Assembly (NCBI GenBank): GCA_021784785.1
Contig: JAJYHJ010000078.1
Location: 1 to 32,925 of the forward strand
DNA from: Actinomycetes bacterium
GTDB lineage: Bacteria; Actinomycetota; Acidimicrobiia; Acidimicrobiales; Acidimicrobiaceae
Length of the DNA: 32,925 bases
Reading direction: 5' to 3'
Part shown: positions 2,961-13,389 of the stretch, in pieces
How the letters are laid out: every line of letters begins with the position of its first letter
Position numbering within the stretch: the stretch's first letter is position 1
Program-made: the position numbers and the translations under genes
The notes under the pieces: model-generated
The model's input: only the letters and a program-made list of their open reading frames with translations
Database searches by the model: none
What the model was told of the DNA's origin: nothing

Positions 2961-3399
2961 ATGGCAGCAGTAAAGAGATGCTCACCAGAAGTTCGTGATC
3001 GTGTTGTTCGTATCGTTATTGATCACAAAGGAGAATACGAATCAACTTGGGCATCTTGTCAGTCAGTTGCTCAAAAACTTGGTATGGCACCTGAGACACG
3101 TCGATTTGGGTTCATCAAGCTCAAATCGACACTTGAGTGACTAAGGGTGCTACAACATAGGAGAAAGATTGTGCTCGCCCGCTAGAGAGTGAAAATGCAG
3201 AGCTTTGTCGAGCAAAAGAAGTTCTCAAAGCAGGACGATTTTCACCGCTATAGAGCAGATACGTCCAAACATGAAGCGATGCAAGTAGTTGCTTTCATAG
3301 ATTTGAATCAACAAAGGTGGGGAACCCCCTAGCTGTAGAGTTCTGGAGTTTGCTTCCTCGACTTATTACACCTATAGACCACGTCCTCGCCTAGTGTTC
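2961..3399 (+). pseudogene. Decayed IS3-family transposase (OrfA plus start of OrfB)
   Basis: ATG 2961 opens a 59-codon frame whose start, KRCSPEVRDRVVRIVIDHKG, matches the helix-turn-helix region of IS3-family OrfA (S/P-E-x-R-x-R-A/V-V-R). It stops at 3140, but homology goes on in other frames. ESENAELCRAKEVLKAG is the OrfA leucine-zipper end; HEAMQVVAFIDLNQQRWG and LEFASSTYYTYRPRPR correspond to the beginning of OrfB. At least two frameshifts and several stops separate these pieces, and the DDE integrase core is gone. The remnant runs directly into the inverted-repeat block at 3415, so it may mark the insertion that began the rearrangement here. Confidence 0.8.
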
Positions 3400-3414
3400 C
3401 TCTTCAGAGTTTCA

Positions 3415-3713
3415 CTGTGAAATGGGAATTTTAGGCAATTTGTCAGAGTTGTCAACATTTCACATCGACTTCCTTGGAAGCAGAGGCAAGGACAAAGCAG
3501 ACAGCACATGCAACTCAAGCGACAAAGGATTCGGAAGGAACCAAGAAGCGTAGTGGTCGTAGACATACCTACGTCGTTACGTTGAGCGATGAGGACAAAA
3601 TGACGATCCCATGCCCTTTATTTGGACCAAGAGTGCAAACGGCATCTTCCCTTCCATGCAAAAATGCTTGGGTCCTATTGTTATTCAAGGGAAACTCTGA
3701 GGAGGGACGATAG
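3415..3713 (+). repeat. Left copy of ~300-bp inverted repeat
   Basis: Bases 3415-3713 reappear reverse-complemented at 5310-5612. Long stretches are identical, for example over 3537-3607, with a 6-base indel near 3500 and scattered substitutions elsewhere. Both copies end at a GGAGGGACG(A/G)TAG motif on one side and CTGTGAAATGGG on the other. Just before the left end is a small palindrome TTTCACTGTGAAA (3410-3422). The repeat could be translated, but the substitutions change amino acids freely, so it is more likely non-coding: an IS terminus or MITE-like element. I do not recognise the family. Confidence 0.85.
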
Positions 3714-3743
3714 GCAACCGCGTGGAATGGATGAAATCCAGCG

Positions 3744-3984
3744 AATCGACGCTCTAATTTAACCAATTTACTAACCATTTACAACATCGCAATCTTTGGG
3801 ACATCACCCACTACCAGTATGTAAACGTCAAGCTTGCCGGAGTGGTTAGCCAAAAGGAGACTAATAGTGTCAACCGAAGAACGATCTGAATCAAGCGCCG
3901 ATCACAACGAACATCTATCAGCAGGACTCCTCCAACTACTGGAGTCTTCGGATCCACTTGAGACAATCGCACCAAAGAGTAACC
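3744..3984 (+). repeat. Upstream copy of ~235-bp direct repeat (permease leader and N-terminus)
   Basis: Bases 3744-3984 match 5660-5891 in the same orientation at high identity, apart from one 9-base insertion (a local AATTTA duplication) in this copy. The repeat covers ~100-120 bases of untranslated leader, the ribosome binding site AAAAGGAG and the first 39 codons of the permease gene at 5774. Similarity stops abruptly after the AACC at 3981-3984, marking the duplication breakpoint. Confidence 0.9.
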
Positions 3985-4268
3985 TCCTTGGATTTCATAT
4001 AGTACCCGTGCACGACCCACGTAACGTGACTTTAAAGTTGGCATACAAACAATCGGTGAATTGTACATCGGATGCGGTTCAGACACTTTATGGGATAGCC
4101 TATCAGATGGAAAGAAGGCCACTTCTCCCTTCGAACACCCTGTCCGGGATGACTCATCGATACCCCCGACGGCAGACTATTTCGCTGTCTCGACTTCAAA
4201 ATTACAGCATAAATGCGGTTGCAAAGCGTTTCTTTGTCACCATACCTCTGGGAGCCATCAATGAATAG
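3867..4268 (+). pseudogene. Truncated duplicate of the NCS1 permease N-terminus fused to unrelated sequence
   Basis: GTG 3867 has the same AAAAGGAG ribosome binding site and spacing as the intact permease gene at 5774. The first 39 residues match that protein at 32 positions (both start MSTEER and share LLQLLESSDPLETI). After residue 39 homology ends at the breakpoint and the frame continues for 94 residues that do not look like a protein domain. The frame stops at TAG 4266-4268, overlapping the ureohydrolase start by 8 bases. It cannot encode a transporter. It may still be translated and act as a leader ORF that brings ribosomes to the ureohydrolase gene; that role is inference. Confidence 0.65.
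4025..4264 (+). other. Unidentified 3' gene fragment with ATGA junction to the ureohydrolase
   Basis: In the frame +1 to the permease remnant, an open stretch follows a TAA at 4022 and has a more protein-like composition than the fused frame (for example GELYIGCGSDTLWDSL, then SPFEHPVRDDS and PPTADYFAVSTSK). It ends in TGA 4262-4264, which overlaps the ureohydrolase ATG as ATGA. This is the usual form of an operon junction, so it may be the surviving tail of a gene once cotranscribed with the ureohydrolase, its front replaced by the duplicated permease leader. I cannot assign a family and the frame could be chance. Confidence 0.3.
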
Positions 4269-5253
4269 TGAGCCAGTATTACCAGGTCGCGTTGACCTCC
4301 CATTCGTCGGCATCCCGAGTTTTCTTCGAACGAAGGTCATCAACCCAGGAGAAGATTTTAACGCAGAACTTGCAGTCTTTGGCGCGCCAACTGATGAAGG
4401 CTCTCCATTTTTCCCAGGTTCCCGCTTCGGCCCGAGGGCTCTACGAGAGCACTCTTTGCGCTTCGTATCTTCAGAGCCAGGATACTTTGATCCCAATCGC
4501 AACCGCTCCTACCTGACGCGAGAGATGCGCGATGGCCTCATAGCGGATCTCGGAGATGCAGACATTATCAGCACGAACATTATCTCGTCGTTCGATAGCA
4601 TCACCGCGCTCACTTCCCGGATTCTCGCCAAAGGCGCGGTACCAGTAGTTCTCGGTGGCGATCATGCAATCTCCTATCCAGTGGTGCGAGCGTACGAACG
4701 TCCACTATACGTCATGCACTTCGACGCTCACCTTGATTACATGCCATTTGTTCACGGAACTTCAATGACAAACCAGCATGCGTTTCGTCATATTGCCCAC
4801 ATGCAACACGTGCAAGGTCTTGTTCAGGTCGGAATCCGTAGCCTACGCAACACAGAGTGCATGTGGCGCGACACAGTTGGGGACGGCAACCAGGTCGTAA
4901 CAATGGCTAAGTTCCGTCAAATCGGCCCACAGGCCGTAGCTCAGCTAATCCCTCGCGGCGCAGACTGCTACGTCAGCCTTGATATCGACGTTCTCGACCT
5001 TCCCTTAGTTCCGGGTTGCGTTTCCGCTGAACCCGATGGGCTCTCCTACGGAGAGCTTCGAGAAACACTAATCGCACTAACTGAACAGAGTCGCATCGTT
5101 GGGTTTGATCTAGTTGAGGTAAACCCCATGCTCGATGTCGGGACAGGTATCACAGCCTATCTCGGAGCCCACACGATTATCGAGTTTCTTGGTCACCTCT
5201 GCGACAGCGACATCTGGCGTTCTGACTCACTTAGAAAAAACCACGTCTCTTGA
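4261..5253 (+). CDS. Ureohydrolase (agmatinase/arginase superfamily), substrate unknown
   Basis: This 330-residue protein belongs to the binuclear-metal ureohydrolases, which split a guanidino group to urea plus an amine (or hydrolyse related substrates). All six metal ligands are visible: His135 in GGDH, Asp155/His157/Asp159 in DAHLD, and Asp241/Asp243 in SLDIDVLD. The conserved Glu286 in DLVEVNP is also present. Length is normal for agmatinase-type enzymes. The segment after the second metal motif reads VPGCVSAEPDGLS where agmatinases have an APGTGTPEPGG-like loop, so the substrate is probably not agmatine. ATG 4261 is chosen for the GGGAG six bases upstream; an in-frame extension to 4213 lacks support. 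It lies between inverted repeats and upstream of a permease and an amidohydrolase, suggesting a catabolic module. Confidence 0.85.
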   Translation: MNSEPVLPGRVDLPFVGIPSFLRTKVINPGEDFNAELAVFGAPTDEGSPFFPGSRFGPRALREHSLRFVSSEPGYFDPNRNRSYLTREMRDGLIADLGDADIISTNIISSFDSITALTSRILAKGAVPVVLGGDHAISYPVVRAYERPLYVMHFDAHLDYMPFVHGTSMTNQHAFRHIAHMQHVQGLVQVGIRSLRNTECMWRDTVGDGNQVVTMAKFRQIGPQAVAQLIPRGADCYVSLDIDVLDLPLVPGCVSAEPDGLSYGELRETLIALTEQSRIVGFDLVEVNPMLDVGTGITAYLGAHTIIEFLGHLCDSDIWRSDSLRKNHVS

Positions 5254-5309
5254 ATCAAACTACAGCGACGAATAACATTATGGGCGAGTTAAAGTTTCAC
5301 CGCAAATAG

Positions 5310-5612
5310 CTACCGTCCCTCCTTGCAGTTTCCTTGAATTACAATAGGCTCCAAGCAATTTTGCGTGGAAGGGAAGATCTCGTTTGCACTCTTGGTCCAA
5401 ATAAGGGGCTTGGGATCGTCATTTTGTCCTCATCGCTCAACGTAACGACGTAGGTATGTCTACGACCACTACGCTTCTTGGTTCCTTCCGAATCTTTACC
5501 GCTTGGGTTGCGTGTGCGATCTGCTTGGTCGTTGTCCTTGCCTCTGCTTCCAAGGAAGTCGATGTGAAATGTTGACAACTCTGACAAATTACCTAAAAAT
5601 CCCATTTCACAG
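5310..5612 (-). repeat. Right copy of ~300-bp inverted repeat
   Basis: This is the reverse complement of 3415-3713, with the same end motifs. It sits between the ureohydrolase and the permease leader. With the left copy it brackets a ~1.6-kb segment holding the duplicated permease leader and the ureohydrolase gene. Apart from the repeats, 5254-5773 shows no gene I can support. Confidence 0.85.
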
Positions 5613-5659
5613 CAAAAATCCGATGAGAAACACTTGTAGCGCAGCGCTGAGTTACTAAA

Positions 5660-5891
5660 AATCGACACTCTAATTTACTAACCATTCACAATGCTGCAAT
5701 CCTTGGGACATCGCTCACTACCAGTATGTAAACGTCATGCTTGCCGGAGTAGCTAGCCAAAAGGAGACTAATTGTGTCAACCGAAGAACGATATGAAACA
5801 AGCGCCGATCAAAACGAACATCGTCCTGCAGAACTCCTCCAACTACTTGAGTCTTCGGATCCACTAGAGACAATCGTACCAAAGAGCAACC
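5660..5891 (+). repeat. Downstream (original) copy of ~235-bp direct repeat
   Basis: This matches 3744-3984 and contains the permease leader, AAAAGGAG ribosome binding site and first 39 codons. It is taken as the original copy because here the reading frame continues into a complete transporter. Confidence 0.9.
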
Positions 5892-7279
5892 GAGATAGTC
5901 CGGTCAAAATGTCTCTTCTTTGGGTTACCTTTCAAGCGAGTGTATCATCTATGTACATCGGCTACCTGGCTCGTTCCGGCGGCATGTCGCTTGCGAGTAT
6001 CCTCTGGGCATGCCTTATCGCCGCTACCGCGATGGTGGGATATGGAATGCTGGCAGCCAATGTGGGAACTGAGACTGGGCAGCCTCATTCAGTTTTAGCC
6101 AGAGGTATCCTTGGCAAGTCCGGTAGCGCCCTCGCCTCTGTTTTGTTGATCGTAACCGGAATGGGTTGGTATGGGTTCCAAGCAGTATTTCTCTCTCTTG
6201 TATTCAACGGACTATTTGGACTAACCCATCTGGAGTTATTTTCTGGACTCTTTGCCCTGGCAATGATCGCGAACAATCTCCTTGGATTTCGTAGCGTATC
6301 TGCGTACGCTCGCTACGTCGCAGCTCCCATCCTGCTGGCCTGGGGTATATACACCATAGTCAAGGCTTTTGCTTCAACAGCAGGACCGCATCTGTTTGCT
6401 GCACCACACGTTACTGCGACACAAGGCATCCTCTTCACCGCTGAATTCCTGATTGGAGTTGCAATGTTTGGAAATGAGCCCGATATTTTTCGATACGCGC
6501 GAAGCGACAGAAAGCATAACTCTGTATCACTAACGTTCGGGTACGGACTGGGAATGTTGGTTTTCCCCGTTGCTGGATACCTTATGGCAGAGTTGTCCGG
6601 TGCGACCACCTTGGGAGCTACCTTGCATTACTTCACACAGTTCTCTCTCTTTGGACTCACAGCCCTAGCGGCAGTCGTTTTCACAATTAACCTAGTCGCA
6701 CTAAACGATGCCAATCTTTACGAAGCAGTAAACGCTGTTCAGAACTTCCTTCGAGGTAAGCGTCGGGTCGAGACCGTAGTCTTGCTTGGCATCTTAGGAC
6801 TAGCTATAGCTGTCCTGATGGAACGATCAAACTCAGTTCAAAATAACTTCTTCATAGTCGCTGGGATCTGTGCGGTATTTCTACCCAGCGCCACAATCGT
6901 AATGGCACTCGACGTATTCCTACTCGAAAAACTCTCCGGGTGCACTCGTCCCGCCGGAGAAAACGGCATGCCTCGGGCAGTAATCTCATGGGAAGCAGCG
7001 TCAGCCGGAAACGTTGCTGGAATTGTAGCAATTCTGGCTGGTGTAGTCGTAGGTGCCCTCACAGGCGGACTAGTCCCAGGCACCCCAGGATTCGGCAAAA
7101 CAAACATTGGGATTCCGGCCGTTGAAGCTTGGTTAACGGCATCGCTGATCTATATCGGGTTCATGCTCTCAGCCCGGGTAATTAGGTCAACAAAGGTCAA
7201 GGAGGCATTGCTTGGGCTGCCGCGGCCTCTCTCTGCGAAAAACTCCGATGATGGTATTAGCGATCGAGAGTTCCCATGA
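5774..7279 (+). CDS. NCS1-family (CodB-like) nucleobase:cation permease
   Basis: This 501-residue, very hydrophobic protein has about twelve membrane helices starting near residue 45. The first helices resemble the NCS1 family of purine, pyrimidine, hydantoin and allantoin permeases, with helix-breaking Gly-rich segments such as GTETGQPHSVLARGILGKSG and a loop TGMGWYGFQAVF typical of CodB/PucI-like members. The start is GTG 5774 with AAAAGGAG eight bases upstream. The ~40-residue hydrophilic N-terminus is the part duplicated at 3867. The stop codon overlaps the next gene's start by 4 bases (ATGA), so permease and amidohydrolase should be translationally coupled. The substrate is probably a small nitrogen-rich ring or guanidino compound; that is inferred from the neighbours. 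Confidence 0.85.
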   Translation: MSTEERYETSADQNEHRPAELLQLLESSDPLETIVPKSNRDSPVKMSLLWVTFQASVSSMYIGYLARSGGMSLASILWACLIAATAMVGYGMLAANVGTETGQPHSVLARGILGKSGSALASVLLIVTGMGWYGFQAVFLSLVFNGLFGLTHLELFSGLFALAMIANNLLGFRSVSAYARYVAAPILLAWGIYTIVKAFASTAGPHLFAAPHVTATQGILFTAEFLIGVAMFGNEPDIFRYARSDRKHNSVSLTFGYGLGMLVFPVAGYLMAELSGATTLGATLHYFTQFSLFGLTALAAVVFTINLVALNDANLYEAVNAVQNFLRGKRRVETVVLLGILGLAIAVLMERSNSVQNNFFIVAGICAVFLPSATIVMALDVFLLEKLSGCTRPAGENGMPRAVISWEAASAGNVAGIVAILAGVVVGALTGGLVPGTPGFGKTNIGIPAVEAWLTASLIYIGFMLSARVIRSTKVKEALLGLPRPLSAKNSDDGISDREFP

Positions 7280-8247
7280 CCCCATCGTCTAAAGCACTAC
7301 ACTCGTCCTCGTCTCTGATCGATATTCACGTCCATCTATACGAGAACAAGGAGCTCGGCAACAATGCCAAGACAAGTTACGAGATCTGGGAGTACGGGGA
7401 AGATCCTAACGTCGAGTTCGCAACGGTCAGTGGTGACTTAGAAGACCTTTCTAACACATACAACAAAGGTGGCTTCGACCGAGCAATCATAGTGCATCTC
7501 TTCGATACCGCCCTGGCCAGGGCAGAGGCCAGGGGTCGCCTCTCTTTCGAGCAGACTAGTGGGGACATCTCAAAGGCCAACCTCGATCTTGACTTGGCCG
7601 TGGGTGAGGCGATGATCGCATCAAATGAGTGGATAGCTAACTTAGGACAGACAAATCCTCTAATTGAAGTCATGGTAACAGTAGATCCCACGGTGCTCAC
7701 TCCAAAGGACCTGGCAAGTCACCTAAGCAACCTAGCCGATAAAGGGATCAAAGGGATCAAGCTTCACCCCGTCTCTCAGGGCTACGTGCCATCCGATCCC
7801 CGACTCGCTGCTATCTATGATGTCTGTACCAATGCCGGAATGATCGTCCTCTCGCACTCGGGACCCGGACATCATGGAGGTGCGTCTGCCAGACCAAGTG
7901 AGTTTGCCTCCGTTTTAGATCAATGGCCAAACTTACACCTTGTCCTCGCTCATCTCGGTGGAGCAGCCTGGCGAGAAGCTGAAGATCTCGCGCAAGCCTA
8001 CCCCCAGGTCGTCTTTGATCTATCTGAGATCATTGAATGGGAGGGTGCACCAAATGCTCCATCAAGAAAAAAATTGTCAACACTAATTAAAAACATCGGT
8101 TCAGATAGAGTCATGCTTGGCTCTGATTTTCCTTGGTATGACCCAACGCGTACCGTGGATAAAGTGATGAGCCTACCAGGTCTTGGTTCAGACGAACTGG
8201 CCGCAATCTTAGGCGGTAACGCAGTCAATCTACTGGGGCTTGACTAA
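7276..8247 (+). CDS. Amidohydrolase-2 family metal-dependent hydrolase or decarboxylase
   Basis: This 323-residue TIM-barrel protein carries the amidohydrolase-2 (ACMSD-like) signature: HVH (18-20) after strand 1, IKLHP with His164, SHSG with His194, LAHLGG with His226, and GSDFPW with Asp284 as the last metal/catalytic residue. The family includes hydrolases and metal-dependent decarboxylases; sequence alone does not decide which. No signal peptide, so cytoplasmic. ATG 7276 overlaps the permease stop (ATGA). It most likely acts on the imported compound or on a product of the upstream ureohydrolase. A 6-bp hairpin (8308-8322) lies 60 bases downstream but lacks a strong T tract. Confidence 0.82.
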   Translation: MTPSSKALHSSSSLIDIHVHLYENKELGNNAKTSYEIWEYGEDPNVEFATVSGDLEDLSNTYNKGGFDRAIIVHLFDTALARAEARGRLSFEQTSGDISKANLDLDLAVGEAMIASNEWIANLGQTNPLIEVMVTVDPTVLTPKDLASHLSNLADKGIKGIKLHPVSQGYVPSDPRLAAIYDVCTNAGMIVLSHSGPGHHGGASARPSEFASVLDQWPNLHLVLAHLGGAAWREAEDLAQAYPQVVFDLSEIIEWEGAPNAPSRKKLSTLIKNIGSDRVMLGSDFPWYDPTRTVDKVMSLPGLGSDELAAILGGNAVNLLGLD

Positions 8248-8477
8248 TTATCCCGGATCGCCAAGCGGCGGTCGTCGCACATCTTATCCTGAACACCAGC
8301 GAAATTTTCGCCTCCAAGGCGAGGATTTATTGAACGAACCGAGTATCGAAACGTTGGACCAGTCGCATGAGCTTGAGGTACAAACAATCTACGTTATGGA
8401 ACGGATTGCCTACAAGCAAAAAGCATCGGTTCTAAAATAGTAAGCCTGCCTGTATATTCATAGCTTTAATATGACAT

Positions 8478-8837
8478 TCAGTGGTTCCCGCCGGACGCCG
8501 TCTCCGCTATTCCCTTAGATCGACACCTAGTACAGATAATAAGATCCGACCATAAGAAGCAGTTCGAGTAAAGCCCATCACCGATCCAGACAACCTTTAA
8601 CTGCGTTTGATCGACACCGGGGATCCTGAATTGACCCGCTTAATCCATTTCCGCCGCAGTTGTCGCTTTCAACGCAGATGCTTCGCCTACGATATACCGG
8701 TGGAATCGTAGCATCAAGCAGTCAGCTATAACGTTTCGGCATTTCATCGGGTCGCTCCAGAAATCACTAATCACACCCCTGCCTAGTTCATCTGCTGCGT
8801 AGTACTTGCTTCGTAGTGATTCACAAGCGACAGCTAG
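8478..8837 (-). pseudogene. Decayed DDE transposase-like fragment downstream of flhB
   Basis: Reading on the - strand from the flhB stop, one frame stays open for 120 codons except for a single TAA at 8640-8642. It includes FHRYIVGEASALKATTAAEMD before the stop (given here in part) and, after it, LKVVWIGDGLYSNCFL followed by IICTRCRSKG. The latter resembles the DGxYxN...LIGRxRxD block near the catalytic Asp of some IS4/IS701-like DDE transposases. No start codon with a ribosome binding site is seen and both ends are missing, so this would be a remnant. The match is weak and from memory. The + strand between 8248 and 8477 shows no supportable gene. Confidence 0.35.
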
Positions 8838-9961
8838 GCCATGGAAGCGGCCTTTTCCAAAAGATCCTCCGGAAGGTCCAAGAGTTTTGTTATATGATTA
8901 GTCTCGTAGTAACGAGCCATTCCGGATAACTGATAGACGAACGCCAAGAGTTTTGCTACCGCGACAAATAAAGTTGGGGGAATCTGTGCGCCTATCTTAC
9001 AACTTACGTGTAGTGTTCGAGCTAGAATCGCATCCCTTACAATCGGCACCCTATCAGCCTCTGCCACCTCTTTGATCTTCAAAGCAACGTGACCACTTCC
9101 CTTAGCAACCACTACAGGAGCTCCATGAGTTCCCGGCTTATACGCTATAGCCACGGCGTAATGGGTAGGGTTCACCACGACAACATCCGCTTCTTTCACA
9201 GCAGCCATCATGCGAGATCTGCTCAGCTGGCGCTGCATCCTACGGATTCGGCCCTTCATGAGCGGGTCACCATCCATCTCTCGCATCTCGTCTTTGATCT
9301 CTTGTTTCGACATATAGAGTCCTTGAATCATCCGATGTCTTTGATGAAAAAAGTCCAGGACTCCAAGAGTAAGACCAACTAATGAAAGTACACGCACAAG
9401 TGAAAGCGATCCATTTACAGTATTTGTGATAGCGTCGGAAAGCGAAAGTTGTCCGCTGGCAAGAGAGACCACCTGGGACTTTATCACCATCCATCCGACA
9501 CCGGCCGTTAATAGGATCTTCAGTATGGACTTTCCTAGCTCAAAAAGCGAATTTGGCGATACCACCTTTTTAACGTTGCCGAGCGGTGAAAGTCTGGAGA
9601 ACTTTGGAAGAACGTTCTTCCAAACCACAGTGACTCCACTTTGACTAACTGTGGCGACAAAAGCCACTATAAAGCCCACGCCGGCAACGATCATCACTCC
9701 ATATATGAATGTTCTGAGCCCGTAAAATAATGCGTTAAGAGCAGTACCCTGAGTGAGGGAGTTTTTATTTAGATTCTCCCACCCATAAACCATATTCATA
9801 AAAGCGGGCGTAAGGTAGTGAAATATGTACGGTCCAAGGTAGCCCAACACAAGCAGTAGAGCCCATGAAGAGATCTCGGCCGAACGAGCTACCTTCCCTT
9901 CCTTCCTGGCATCCTTTCGGCGTTTAGGAGTTGGCTTCTCCGTTTTCCCCGCCCGAGCCAT
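8834..9961 (-). CDS. flhB: Flagellar export gate protein FlhB (substrate-specificity switch)
   Basis: FlhB is part of the flagellar type III export gate in the membrane and, after autocleavage, switches export from rod/hook to filament subunits. The protein is 375 aa, normal length. It starts with the typical basic EKPTPKRRKDARKEG, has four membrane helices (~30-200), and keeps the self-cleavage motif NPTH at 264-267, followed by the FlhB-C segment YKPGTHGAPVVVAKG. ATG 9961 lies 2 bases after the fliR stop. It is the last gene of the block; flhA, which often follows, is not here. Confidence 0.96.
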   Translation of the reverse strand: MARAGKTEKPTPKRRKDARKEGKVARSAEISSWALLLVLGYLGPYIFHYLTPAFMNMVYGWENLNKNSLTQGTALNALFYGLRTFIYGVMIVAGVGFIVAFVATVSQSGVTVVWKNVLPKFSRLSPLGNVKKVVSPNSLFELGKSILKILLTAGVGWMVIKSQVVSLASGQLSLSDAITNTVNGSLSLVRVLSLVGLTLGVLDFFHQRHRMIQGLYMSKQEIKDEMREMDGDPLMKGRIRRMQRQLSRSRMMAAVKEADVVVVNPTHYAVAIAYKPGTHGAPVVVAKGSGHVALKIKEVAEADRVPIVRDAILARTLHVSCKIGAQIPPTLFVAVAKLLAFVYQLSGMARYYETNHITKLLDLPEDLLEKAASMA

Positions 9962-9963
9962 CG

Positions 9964-10725
9964 TTATTTAAGTCCTAAAAGATCGCTCTCAGCTGCAAGT
10001 ATATACTGCAGAGCGGACGCTAAAAACTCTGGAAGCAGCGCAAGGGACAGCATCATCAGTCCCAAAGACAGAAGTATCTGTAGCGGGAAAACAAAGGTAT
10101 ATGCGTTGAGCTGAGGTGAGACCTTTACTAATATTCCTACTATTACCTGAGATAGGAAAAGCACCGAAAGTATCGGTGCTGCGATCTGAATCGACGCTCC
10201 CATTACAACAGAAACACTTTTTACAATTACCACCATTCCAAGCTCTGGGGATCCAAGGACCTTTGTTCCATCAAGAGTAAGAAGACCTTGGACGACTACC
10301 GTATCTGCACCGGATATGAAAAACATCGTCATCCACAACAAACCATAGAGCTGACCAGTAACAGGGGATTGATTTAGTGAAAGTGGGTCTAACGAAGGTG
10401 GCGGTGAAAATCCTCCAAAAAGTCCGACGGCTGAGCCGGCTGATGATCCCAAGTTGATAAATACATTTGTGACATAACCAACGATCCAGCCCACGACTAG
10501 CTGCGCAAGCATGGCTCCCATCAGCCCAAAAGTCGTCGTGGGGAGAGTCTCAACTCTTGCCATATGCGACGCGCCTGCTATCGCCAATGCCATCGCGAAC
10601 GATACCCGCACAGCCCTAGGAATCGCAGCTAGAGCAAACGGCTGCGCCACAAAGACAAATCCAAAGGTACGTGCCATAACCAAGAGAAAACCAGTTAGCA
10701 GTGCCGGTTGGAGTGAGATCTCCAC
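9964..10725 (-). CDS. fliR: Flagellar export gate protein FliR
   Basis: FliR is a membrane component of the export gate, forming with FliP and FliQ the helical protein-conducting core. The 253-residue product is rich in hydrophobic helices and shows the family pattern at residues ~10-40 (ARTFGFVFVAQPFALAAIP) and a conserved Gly-Phe-rich loop (LFGGFSPPPSLDP). The start is GTG 10725, whose G is shared with the fliQ TAG stop (TAGTG). A longer in-frame extension to 11028 reads through fliQ and is spurious. The stop is 2 bases before flhB. Confidence 0.94.
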   Translation of the reverse strand: MEISLQPALLTGFLLVMARTFGFVFVAQPFALAAIPRAVRVSFAMALAIAGASHMARVETLPTTTFGLMGAMLAQLVVGWIVGYVTNVFINLGSSAGSAVGLFGGFSPPPSLDPLSLNQSPVTGQLYGLLWMTMFFISGADTVVVQGLLTLDGTKVLGSPELGMVVIVKSVSVVMGASIQIAAPILSVLFLSQVIVGILVKVSPQLNAYTFVFPLQILLSLGLMMLSLALLPEFLASALQYILAAESDLLGLK

Positions 10726-11000
10726 TAGCCACCACCAAGCAACTTTGGAATCTCGCCATACAACGTAGTAGTAAAGGTAATTAACTGTCCAATCATCCAA
10801 TGCCCCGTGACAAAAAGCACAAGCGCTATTGCGGCAAGCTTTGGAAGAAACGACAAAGTTGCTTCCTGGATTTGAGTCAATGTCTGGAAAAGCGATACCA
10901 GAAGACCTACTGCTAAAGCAGCTCCCAAAACTGGGCCAGCCAACTCGAACGCTAGATATATGGCCTGGCCAGCGATTTGAATAACAGAACTTTGGCTCAT
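10725..11000 (-). CDS. fliQ: Flagellar export gate protein FliQ
   Basis: At 91 residues with two membrane helices (about 14-38 and 49-72), this has the length and layout of FliQ, including the conserved loop LVSLFQTLTQIQEATLSFLPK between them. It forms the export core with FliP and FliR. The ATG at 11000 overlaps the fliP TGA (ATGA), and its TAG overlaps the fliR GTG, so fliP-fliQ-fliR are translationally coupled. Confidence 0.96.
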   Translation of the reverse strand: MSQSSVIQIAGQAIYLAFELAGPVLGAALAVGLLVSLFQTLTQIQEATLSFLPKLAAIALVLFVTGHWMIGQLITFTTTLYGEIPKLLGGG

Positions 11001-11710
11001 CGATAGCTAACCAACAATGTATGAACAACCAAAGTCCATCCGTCCACTAGGACGAATAATAAAATCTTAAACGGCAACGATATAAGAGTCGGTGGGAGCA
11101 TCATCATACCCATAGACATAAGGACCGAAGCGACCACAAGATCAATGATCAAGAACGGTATAAATATGACAAATCCAATGACAAAGGCGCTATAGAGCTC
11201 TGAGAGAACAAAAGCTGGAACCAACGCTGCCATTGATACGTCTTGAACCTTCGGCGGCTTGTCGCCTGTGACTTGAGTAAACATCGCCAACTCAGGGGTT
11301 CGAGTCTGTTTTAGCATCCACACCTTAAGAGGAGTCTGAGCCGCGTCATAGGCTTGCACCGCGGAGATCTTTCCAGCCATGTACGGCTTTACGGCCACCC
11401 GATCTATCGTTGACAGAGTCGGCGCCATTACGTACAGAGATATAAATAGAGCCAACCCTGCAAGAACTTGGTTCGGCGGAACCGCCGACAGTCCAAGTGC
11501 ATTTCTAGTAAGCGAAAGCACTACAACAGACCGAACGAAACCCGTCATCATAATTAATAGAGAAGGTGCAACCGCTAACAGCGACAACACGATAATAATG
11601 ACGACTGACTCCGTAGGTTTTGCAAACGAACCCGATAGATTGACGTTGACCGATGGAAGTGCACCGGCGGCTCCAAGAACCAACGAACTAGTAGGTGCCA
11701 TGGATGGCAT
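10997..11710 (-). CDS. fliP: Flagellar export gate protein FliP
   Basis: This 237-residue membrane protein is the central subunit of the export gate. It contains the family hallmarks: the early helix block SLLAVAPSLLIMMTGFVRSV, the pattern MLKQTRTPELAMF in the periplasmic domain, and the C-terminal pair of helices with FIPFLIIDLVVASVLMSMGM. The N-terminus (~25 residues) is hydrophobic but without a clear cleavage site; FliP is often made with a signal peptide. A good Shine-Dalgarno, AGGGAGG, precedes ATG 11710. Confidence 0.97.
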   Translation of the reverse strand: MPSMAPTSSLVLGAAGALPSVNVNLSGSFAKPTESVVIIIVLSLLAVAPSLLIMMTGFVRSVVVLSLTRNALGLSAVPPNQVLAGLALFISLYVMAPTLSTIDRVAVKPYMAGKISAVQAYDAAQTPLKVWMLKQTRTPELAMFTQVTGDKPPKVQDVSMAALVPAFVLSELYSAFVIGFVIFIPFLIIDLVVASVLMSMGMMMLPPTLISLPFKILLFVLVDGWTLVVHTLLVSYR

Positions 11711-11729
11711 ATCCTCCCTAAGAAGTTAA

Positions 11730-12182
11730 CTAGGCTCTAGTTGACTTAACTTTTCTACTATCCGCAAGCGCCATCCATGAATGCAACGGATTTCTACCAA
11801 ATAAAGGGGGTCTCCGTTCCCCCCACTTCGAGACCAAAATGGTCTCGGCGTCTTCCACGTTACGAAGATCTATACTCTCGACTTCGTCAAGATCAACGGC
11901 TTGGTCTAGCTCCTCAACGACAGTTTCACTCAAGGTGTTCATACTTCCTTGCGTAACGCCTACCAAGAGACGCTTACTACCAAAGCGTACAACGTACAAA
12001 GTCTGGCCCTTGCCGAGCGGAGTTCGGCCTTCGACTAGCGCTCCCACTGAGGCTGGAGAGCGTCCGTTTCTCCTTCCGAAGCTTTTAGTACTTCGAGTAA
12101 TAATTTTTGACAGACCTAGGACGATCGCCACAACCAGAACTAGTGAGATTAGGGATTTTGCAACAAGCGCTAGCTCGGACAC
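11730..12182 (-). CDS. fliO: Flagellar biosynthesis protein FliO
   Basis: FliO is a poorly conserved membrane chaperone for assembly of the FliP-FliR gate. The 150-residue product has one N-terminal membrane helix (~8-27) and then a cytoplasmic domain with the usual FliO pattern of a basic stretch, an LGKGQTLYVVRFGSKRLLVGV strand pair and a variable tail. Identification rests on this layout and on its place between fliN and fliP. GTG 12182 shares one base with the fliN TAG stop (TAGTG). Confidence 0.88.
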   Translation of the reverse strand: MSELALVAKSLISLVLVVAIVLGLSKIITRSTKSFGRRNGRSPASVGALVEGRTPLGKGQTLYVVRFGSKRLLVGVTQGSMNTLSETVVEELDQAVDLDEVESIDLRNVEDAETILVSKWGERRPPLFGRNPLHSWMALADSRKVKSTRA

Positions 12183-12523
12183 TAATTCGCCTCCGACGAA
12201 TTTTGAACCATCTCTTCTTTGGCTACAACTTCGGTAATTCGCACACCGAACTCATCGTCTACTACAACGACCTCGCCTTTTGCGACCAACGTGCCGTTGA
12301 CGAGGACGTCGACCGCGGCATTTGCGGAGCGGTCGAGTTCAATCACATCTCCAGCTGCTAGTGCTAAGAGACCTCCAACTGTCATCTTTGCCCTTCCAAG
12401 TTCTACCGCAACCTGCATCTCTACGTTCTTTAGGACAGATAGTGGTAGATTCCGGTCTGCACCAAAGCGTTTTTGAGCCTCTCTGGTCTGTGTTTGCTCC
12501 ATTACATCCATCGCGTCTTCCAC
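12182..12523 (-). CDS. fliN: Flagellar motor switch protein FliN
   Basis: FliN forms the bulk of the switch C-ring and helps dock the export ATPase complex. The 113-residue product is a single SpoA (surface presentation) domain preceded by ~30 variable residues; the family pattern VEMQVAVELGRAKMTVGGLL and LDRSANAAVDVLVNGTLVAKGE are clear. It is a plain FliN, not the larger CheC-fused FliY. GTG 12523 follows fliM by 2 bases and has GGAGGAG from the end of fliM as ribosome binding site. Confidence 0.96.
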   Translation of the reverse strand: MEDAMDVMEQTQTREAQKRFGADRNLPLSVLKNVEMQVAVELGRAKMTVGGLLALAAGDVIELDRSANAAVDVLVNGTLVAKGEVVVVDDEFGVRITEVVAKEEMVQNSSEAN

Positions 12524-12525
12524 AA

Positions 12526-13389
12526 CTACTCCTCCACAATTAGAACTGCTAACCTGCTACCGACTTTTGTAGGTCGTCCTCGATAGAGATGCACGCCGTT
12601 TACGATCACATCCAAAGGATCTGACACTCGATGACCAAGGTTTATTACATCTCCTGGTTCCATCTCAACGATCTCTCCTGACGTGAGAACGGTCGGCTTG
12701 AAAAGAACCTCCACATCTACCTCTACATCTTGAAGGCGTGTCTCCAATCCTTGATGGAACTCCTCACTTTGCTTTTCCACAACTGCATGTCCACGACTTC
12801 CGAGACTTTCGACGATTGGACGTAGAGCCGGGAAAGGAAAGACCAAAGACATAGTCTGACTACTTAGCTCTCCGATTGTTACGTCTAAGTTCACTAAAAA
12901 GCACATCTCATTCAATGGGATTCCTTGAATAAACTGGAGTGCCTGTTCGGTGCCTAGCCTCTCAAGTCGTGTCTCAATTATGGGTGAAAATGCGCTTGTC
13001 AACTGGGGCAATACCTCTCCCAAGACTCCTAAAATTATCGTCTGCTCGATGTCGGTTGGAACTCGAGCCTCAGGTTCTTGATCACCGATACCACCAAGGC
13101 GTAGGTCAACGAGACGAAGTGCAAGTGCCGCAGGAAGGAAAAGAACTATTTTTGAAGGCAGAGGAGTCAGATAGAACAACGACACTGACCCAATCTCTGG
13201 AAGTTCACCCAAGACCTCCTCCCAAGTCTTTTGAGAGGTCGATGCCATCTCTATCCGAGATGGCACTCGCAGATTTGCTCCCAACACAGTGGAAGCCGGT
13301 CTAGCAAAGCTCTCAAGCAGCATCTCAATCGATCGAGCTTGCGTACGTTCTAATGTCTTTGGCTGACGAAAGTCAAAGGACTTCGTCAT
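12526..13389 (-). CDS. fliM: Flagellar motor switch protein FliM, lacking the N-terminal CheY-binding motif
   Basis: FliM is the middle switch protein that normally binds phosphorylated CheY. The body is intact: FDFRQPKTLERTQ at the start of the middle domain, the GGxG-type LRLGGIGD, and a C-terminal SpoA domain resembling FliN. Missing is the N-terminal LSQxEIDALL-like segment that binds CheY-P; the protein begins almost at the middle domain. ATG 13389 is chosen because a sigma-28-like promoter (13435-13461) would start transcription near 13428, leaving a ~40-base leader. The only longer start, GTG 13428, would add 13 residues, still without the motif, and a stop closes the frame at 13459-13461. 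A 115-base gap separates it from fliL. Confidence 0.95.
   Translation of the reverse strand: MTKSFDFRQPKTLERTQARSIEMLLESFARPASTVLGANLRVPSRIEMASTSQKTWEEVLGELPEIGSVSLFYLTPLPSKIVLFLPAALALRLVDLRLGGIGDQEPEARVPTDIEQTIILGVLGEVLPQLTSAFSPIIETRLERLGTEQALQFIQGIPLNEMCFLVNLDVTIGELSSQTMSLVFPFPALRPIVESLGSRGHAVVEKQSEEFHQGLETRLQDVEVDVEVLFKPTVLTSGEIVEMEPGDVINLGHRVSDPLDVIVNGVHLYRGRPTKVGSRLAVLIVEE

Follow-up and report, generated by a model that had tools for sequence, protein, structure and literature searches.

A permease leader duplicated upstream of an arginase-family gene: probable gene conversion between the copies and later insertion of deleted IS630 elements in an Acidimicrobiaceae genome

Comparative analysis of a 32,925-nt stretch of an Acidimicrobiaceae genome (hereafter the window) revealed a short leader present twice in direct orientation, once upstream of an arginase-family gene and once upstream of the permease gene which follows it. 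Taken as a whole, the most probable explanation is that the permease leader was duplicated in an ancestor of the genus, that gene conversion subsequently maintained the similarity of its copies within each genome, and that two internally deleted IS630 elements were inserted at a later stage. The individual parts are ordinary; the homogenised leaders nevertheless make an elegant example on a small scale. The conspicuous inverted repeats of the locus are passive remnants of insertion sequences, while the less striking direct repeat carries the signal, as it would show a short regulatory leader, common to neighbouring genes, homogenised over approximately one synonymous change per site.

The window corresponds to contig 57 (JAJYHJ010000078.1) of a draft assembly which totals 2.39 Mb and comprises 183 contigs. 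The contig starts within a 5S rRNA gene (1-98), with an rRNA operon probably located upstream of the locus, and continues into a flagellar gene cluster. The locus itself follows the order leader, arginase-family gene, second leader, permease, amidohydrolase. The arginase-family (ureohydrolase) gene lies at 4261-5253 on the forward strand (Pfam PF00491, E 6e-57), an in-frame ATG at 4213 being a possible alternative start. Its product is a full match to the family and carries the metal-site motifs GGDH, DAHLD and SLDIDVLD, but it fails to reach the NCBIfam cut-offs for agmatinase, formimidoylglutamase (hutG) and arginase, and no substrate is assigned from these models; the nearest solved sequence is the agmatinase 1wog. 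The permease, of the cytosine/purine/allantoin type (Transp_cyt_pur, PF02133, E 1e-12), occupies 5774-7279 on the forward strand, and its stop is overlapped by a forward-strand amidohydrolase gene at 7276-8247 (Amidohydro_2, PF04909, E 9e-31). As part of the explanation given above, and at the same level of confidence, the three genes probably form a small catabolic cluster. The initial annotation had regarded the ureohydrolase and the permease as unlinked, a view contradicted by a distantly related genome from the same phylum (G455), in which an arginase-family gene (57% identical) and an amidohydrolase (45%) are likewise grouped with a Transp_cyt_pur permease, all three on one strand and within approximately 4 kb. 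In that genome, positions 5142-12589 of locus L095 contain a luciferase-like monooxygenase, the amidohydrolase, the arginase-family enzyme, the cytosine/purine-type permease and a DUF6282 protein, a gene set which may hint at what the window's enzyme acts on.

The direct repeat described by the initial annotation was recovered at 3765-3984 and 5672-5891 (220 nt, 89% identity), with approximately 17 further matching nucleotides on the left (3744-3760) past a 9-nt gap; in a whole-genome search the pair had an E value of 6e-79, far beyond chance. It spans the leader with its ribosome-binding site (AAGGAGAC) and permease codons 1-39, in agreement with the earlier proposal that the permease leader and 39 codons are duplicated before the arginase-family gene and that the leader sequence is common to both genes. 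On the basis of this repeat and of a four-leader alignment, the untranslated part of the copy upstream of the arginase-family gene (copy A), including the ribosome-binding site, was placed at 3744-3866, and the copy upstream of the permease (copy P) at 5660-5773, both on the forward strand. No further leader copies were found in the genome or in three genus relatives, where the other matches measured 18-20 nt, and the leader was accordingly rejected as a genome-wide element.

A same-genus relative (JAJYGI010000027.1, contig C38 of genome G002, here L051) shares the order leader, arginase, leader, permease, amidohydrolase, followed by flhB. Its permease protein is 89% identical to that of the window. 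Between the two species, dN and dS were 0.056 and 0.79 for the arginase gene and 0.057 and 1.02 for the permease gene, and both genes appear to be under strong constraint. A third full arrangement with leaders was not encountered in wide samples of 397 genomes of the order, searched with the permease, and 396 genomes of the phylum, searched with the arginase. The arrangement is thus known from two species, both represented by multi-contig drafts, the relative being a metagenome bin at 2.6x coverage. In a genome from another genus of the same family (G005), a permease ortholog (74%) precedes an amidohydrolase with neither arginase nor leader beside it, so the duplication is not polarised further.

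Along their common stretch of ~190 nt, identity between copies A and P reaches 88.9% in the window and 93.8% in the relative; across the two genomes, it is only 69-74% for any pair of copies. The informative sites are distributed accordingly: 34 unite the two copies of a genome, none unites the copies before the same gene, and one is crossed. Similarly, dS in the duplicated leader codons was 0.20 in the window and 0 in the relative (few sites), versus 0.79-1.05 between species for the surrounding genes. A single old duplication without exchange was rejected, as the copies are closer within a genome than between genomes, which leaves either gene conversion or a pair of independent duplications as the explanation.

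The distribution of differences along the leader bears on this choice. In the relative, copies A and P differ at only 1 of 116 sites across the ribosome-binding site and codons, whereas their left edge has 9 differences in 24 sites. The orthologous permease leaders of window and relative show no edge contrast of this kind, differing at 5 of 24 sites on the left and 32 of 116 on the right. The left edge of the relative's copy A matches the window permease leader at 16 of 24 sites, a score attained at three of 45,843 positions, its own among them; it is evidently still homologous. This mosaic divergence, seen in one relative only and in a low-coverage assembly, argues for gene conversion of an ancestral duplication: it points to the relative's copy A as an old copy whose right part would have been recently overwritten, a pattern which gene conversion is expected to leave behind. 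The leader pair combines paralogs closer to each other than to their orthologs with a mosaic tract edge, the latter in one species only, and homogenisation by gene conversion is strongly indicated rather than observed. As in gene conversion between repeats of one bacterial genome, e.g. rRNA operons (PMC8022953), copies within a genome are alike while orthologs diverge; here, in contrast to rRNA operons, the homogenised piece is a leader of ~200 bp with start codons placed before two non-homologous genes.

The alternative, in which each species copied its own permease leader before the arginase gene after the split and without gene conversion, would likewise give rise to a 34:0 distribution of sites and to low dS between paralogs, and it accommodates both the unequal extent of the repeat, which reaches codon 39 in the window and codon 21 in the relative, and the unrelated spacers which follow. 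However, it requires the same rare event to have occurred twice in the same place, and the older left edge retained by the relative's copy A would be unexpected for a single recent copy; we consider this alternative rather unlikely.

Under an ancestral duplication with gene conversion, the permease leader and start would have come to precede the arginase gene as well in the genus ancestor, leaving that gene between the two copies of a direct repeat. The founding step may have been a tandem duplication or a single-crossover integration, and the arrangement itself is seen in two species. Later, in the window's lineage, each leader would have received on its upstream side a deleted IS630 copy of ~320 bp, the two copies being oppositely oriented. 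The later date is supported by comparison with the relative for the right-hand element and is presumed for the left-hand one, as upstream synteny ends there. Against the explanation as a whole stands its reliance on two draft-assembled species, which leaves some room for repeat mis-assembly or independent duplications, as does the lack of similarity between the two species in the spacer that follows copy A.

A variant of the founding step, not exclusive of the above, concerns the leader ORF which begins in the duplicated codons. This ORF (3867-4268, forward strand, GTG start) matches the permease N-terminus over 39 codons and then continues into sequence unrelated to the relative's spacer; its stop at 4268 overlaps the arginase ATG at 4261, as had been noted initially. 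In the relative, the leader ORF stops ~70 nt before the arginase start and the overlap is not kept. Translational coupling is therefore not a common feature, and a conserved stop/start coupling was rejected. The spacers between copy A and the arginase gene are unlike in the two species, and that of the window (3985-4284) had no match elsewhere in the genus. According to the variant, the arginase-side leader would be the stump of a whole duplicated permease which lost its middle. Immediately past the repeat, 19-34 nt are similar (76%) to positions 6275-6308 of the permease, where such a deletion would join, and between 0 and 119 of 300 shuffles scored as high depending on the scoring. The match is nevertheless short and scoring-dependent, and the relative's spacer has no significant permease match. 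A permease-pseudogene origin of the spacer is only suggestive, and as a variant it has a low probability.

With regard to function, a search of the leaders of window and relative against the Rfam covariance models gave no match up to E 1, and a riboswitch or known RNA was rejected; the consensus fold is weak (-3.5 kcal/mol), and a conserved RNA fold was likewise rejected. In the four-leader alignment, conservation is strongest in a stretch which reads CAATC, then GACATC and CAC, and lastly CCAGTATGTA, with the ribosome-binding site after it. This stretch, which was not called in a sigma-70 scan, would resemble a promoter or operator more than a structured RNA, and the same leader promoter or operator is probably used by both genes. 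It is doubtful, although conceivable, that selection keeps the leaders alike, with conversion of promoter/operator and leader codons holding enzyme and transporter under matched control across species. If matched regulation were the reason, the pair would provide a testable case of gene conversion acting on bacterial control regions. In the relative (L051 5743-5766 and 7143-7170), a one-base difference in both leaders closes an ORF of eight codons, GTG TCC ACT TAT AAA GGA TCT GAA TGA, which overlaps through its stop the ATG that opens the permease or leader ORF. This short frame is absent from the window and is possibly a tiny upstream ORF.

The inverted repeats at the ends of the arginase-containing segment are present as initially annotated, and slightly longer than the 299/303 bp given at that time. 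Their ungapped blocks lie at 3393-3495/5532-5634 (92%) and 3525-3693/5329-5497 (93%), and alignment of the whole arms (~3394-3710 and 5313-5633) gave 304 identical columns of 346 (88%, flanks counted); with an E value of 5e-120 in the whole-genome search, this pair too is far beyond chance. A BLAST search of both copies against their own genome established their identity as IS630-derived mini-elements. The two blocks into which the repeat splits also occur separately in the genome, and in contig 43 (L013:1223-2494) they form the ends of a single element of 1.27 kb with 34-nt terminal inverted repeats, whose ORF encodes an IS630 transposase (NCBIfam NF033545, 239.8 bits against a cut-off of 100, and Pfam DDE_3). 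BLAST and alignment with the joined IS ends revealed that each arm consists of the left ~215 nt of the full IS fused directly to its right ~112 nt. Mini-element 1 (3394-3710, forward strand) joins a left end at ~3394-3598 to a right end at ~3599-3710; mini-element 2 (5313-5633, reverse strand), the same deleted derivative in opposite orientation, lies after the arginase stop and ahead of the permease leader. The deletion junction is identical in both (3598/3599 and 5423/5424), and the arms are 88% identical to each other versus only 78-80% to the full element. TA, the flank expected for an IS630 insertion, is found at 3392-3393, 3711-3712 and 5311-5312, while the fourth end, the outer one of mini-element 2, reads TT. 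The arms are, on this evidence, two insertions of one internally deleted, transposase-less, MITE-like derivative of IS630. The same deleted form was found twice, which indicates that it moved as such, as MITEs do, although no third copy with this junction was present in the genome assembly.

The mini-elements resemble described MITEs in sharing terminal inverted repeats with a co-resident full-length IS, here an IS630 (ISY100, PMC2170065; MITEAba12, PMC6382973, the latter an IS-derived MITE of a family other than IS630). As in the IS630/Tc1-mariner MITEs (ISY100, PMC2170065), they also have an internal deletion and carry no transposase; TA borders three of their four ends. They differ from IS630/Tc1-mariner MITEs in comprising two assembled junction copies only, of 317-321 bp, both around one gene.

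Mini-element 2 might have provided the permease with an outward promoter, in which case the control of the two genes would no longer be matched in the window's lineage. Outward promoters have been reported in another bacterial MITE (PMC6382973), and a TTGACA-like site directed towards the permease is present at 5572-5600 on the forward strand, a 10/12 consensus match only, at the place where the full IS end has TTGACA-16-TAAAAT. The number of promoter-like sites in the region, however, equals the shuffle mean, and we judge this possibility improbable.

The relative carries no mini-elements at this locus. The site of mini-element 2 corresponds there to a gap of ~65 nt; upstream of the first leader, where no mini-element is present either, the genomes differ, an aquaporin-family gene being found in the relative, and the break in synteny hides the empty site of mini-element 1. 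As this genome has both leaders without mini-elements, the leader duplication is evidently independent of the inverted repeats, and the idea that they made or carried it is not supported. The leader-capture model of the initial annotation, for which comparison with a relative had been set beforehand as a test, fails on this result. Mobilisation or creation of the leader-arginase segment by the inverted repeats, as a composite transposon or a flipping cassette, would suit the opposite orientation of the flanking mini-elements but is extremely improbable, given that an identical gene order, both leaders included, is found in their absence, that neither carries a transposase, and that the right-hand one merely interrupts a short intergenic gap. 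A composite transposon would have its segment absent at the site in relatives, and the relative has genes and leaders there. No recombinase gene was found in the segment, its inverted orientation was not seen in the single assembly, and flipping would be possible only by ordinary homologous recombination. The mini-elements are ordinary insertion-sequence debris, which happens to flank the arginase-family gene.

Upstream of mini-element 1, at 2961-3345, lies a decayed ORF with internal stops (MAAVKRCSPEVRDRVVRIVIDHKGEYESTWASCQSVAQKLGM...), which we take to resemble the start of an IS3-type transposase; its first 59 codons had no Pfam match. IS630 copies and fragments are numerous in the genome and in the three genus relatives. 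Ten further partial matches to the repeat were found in the genome, many of them at contig ends, and IS630 copies are located at or near the ends of contigs C34, C49, C52, C90, C151 and C81. The IS630 repeat is probably one of the reasons why the genome is broken into so many contigs.
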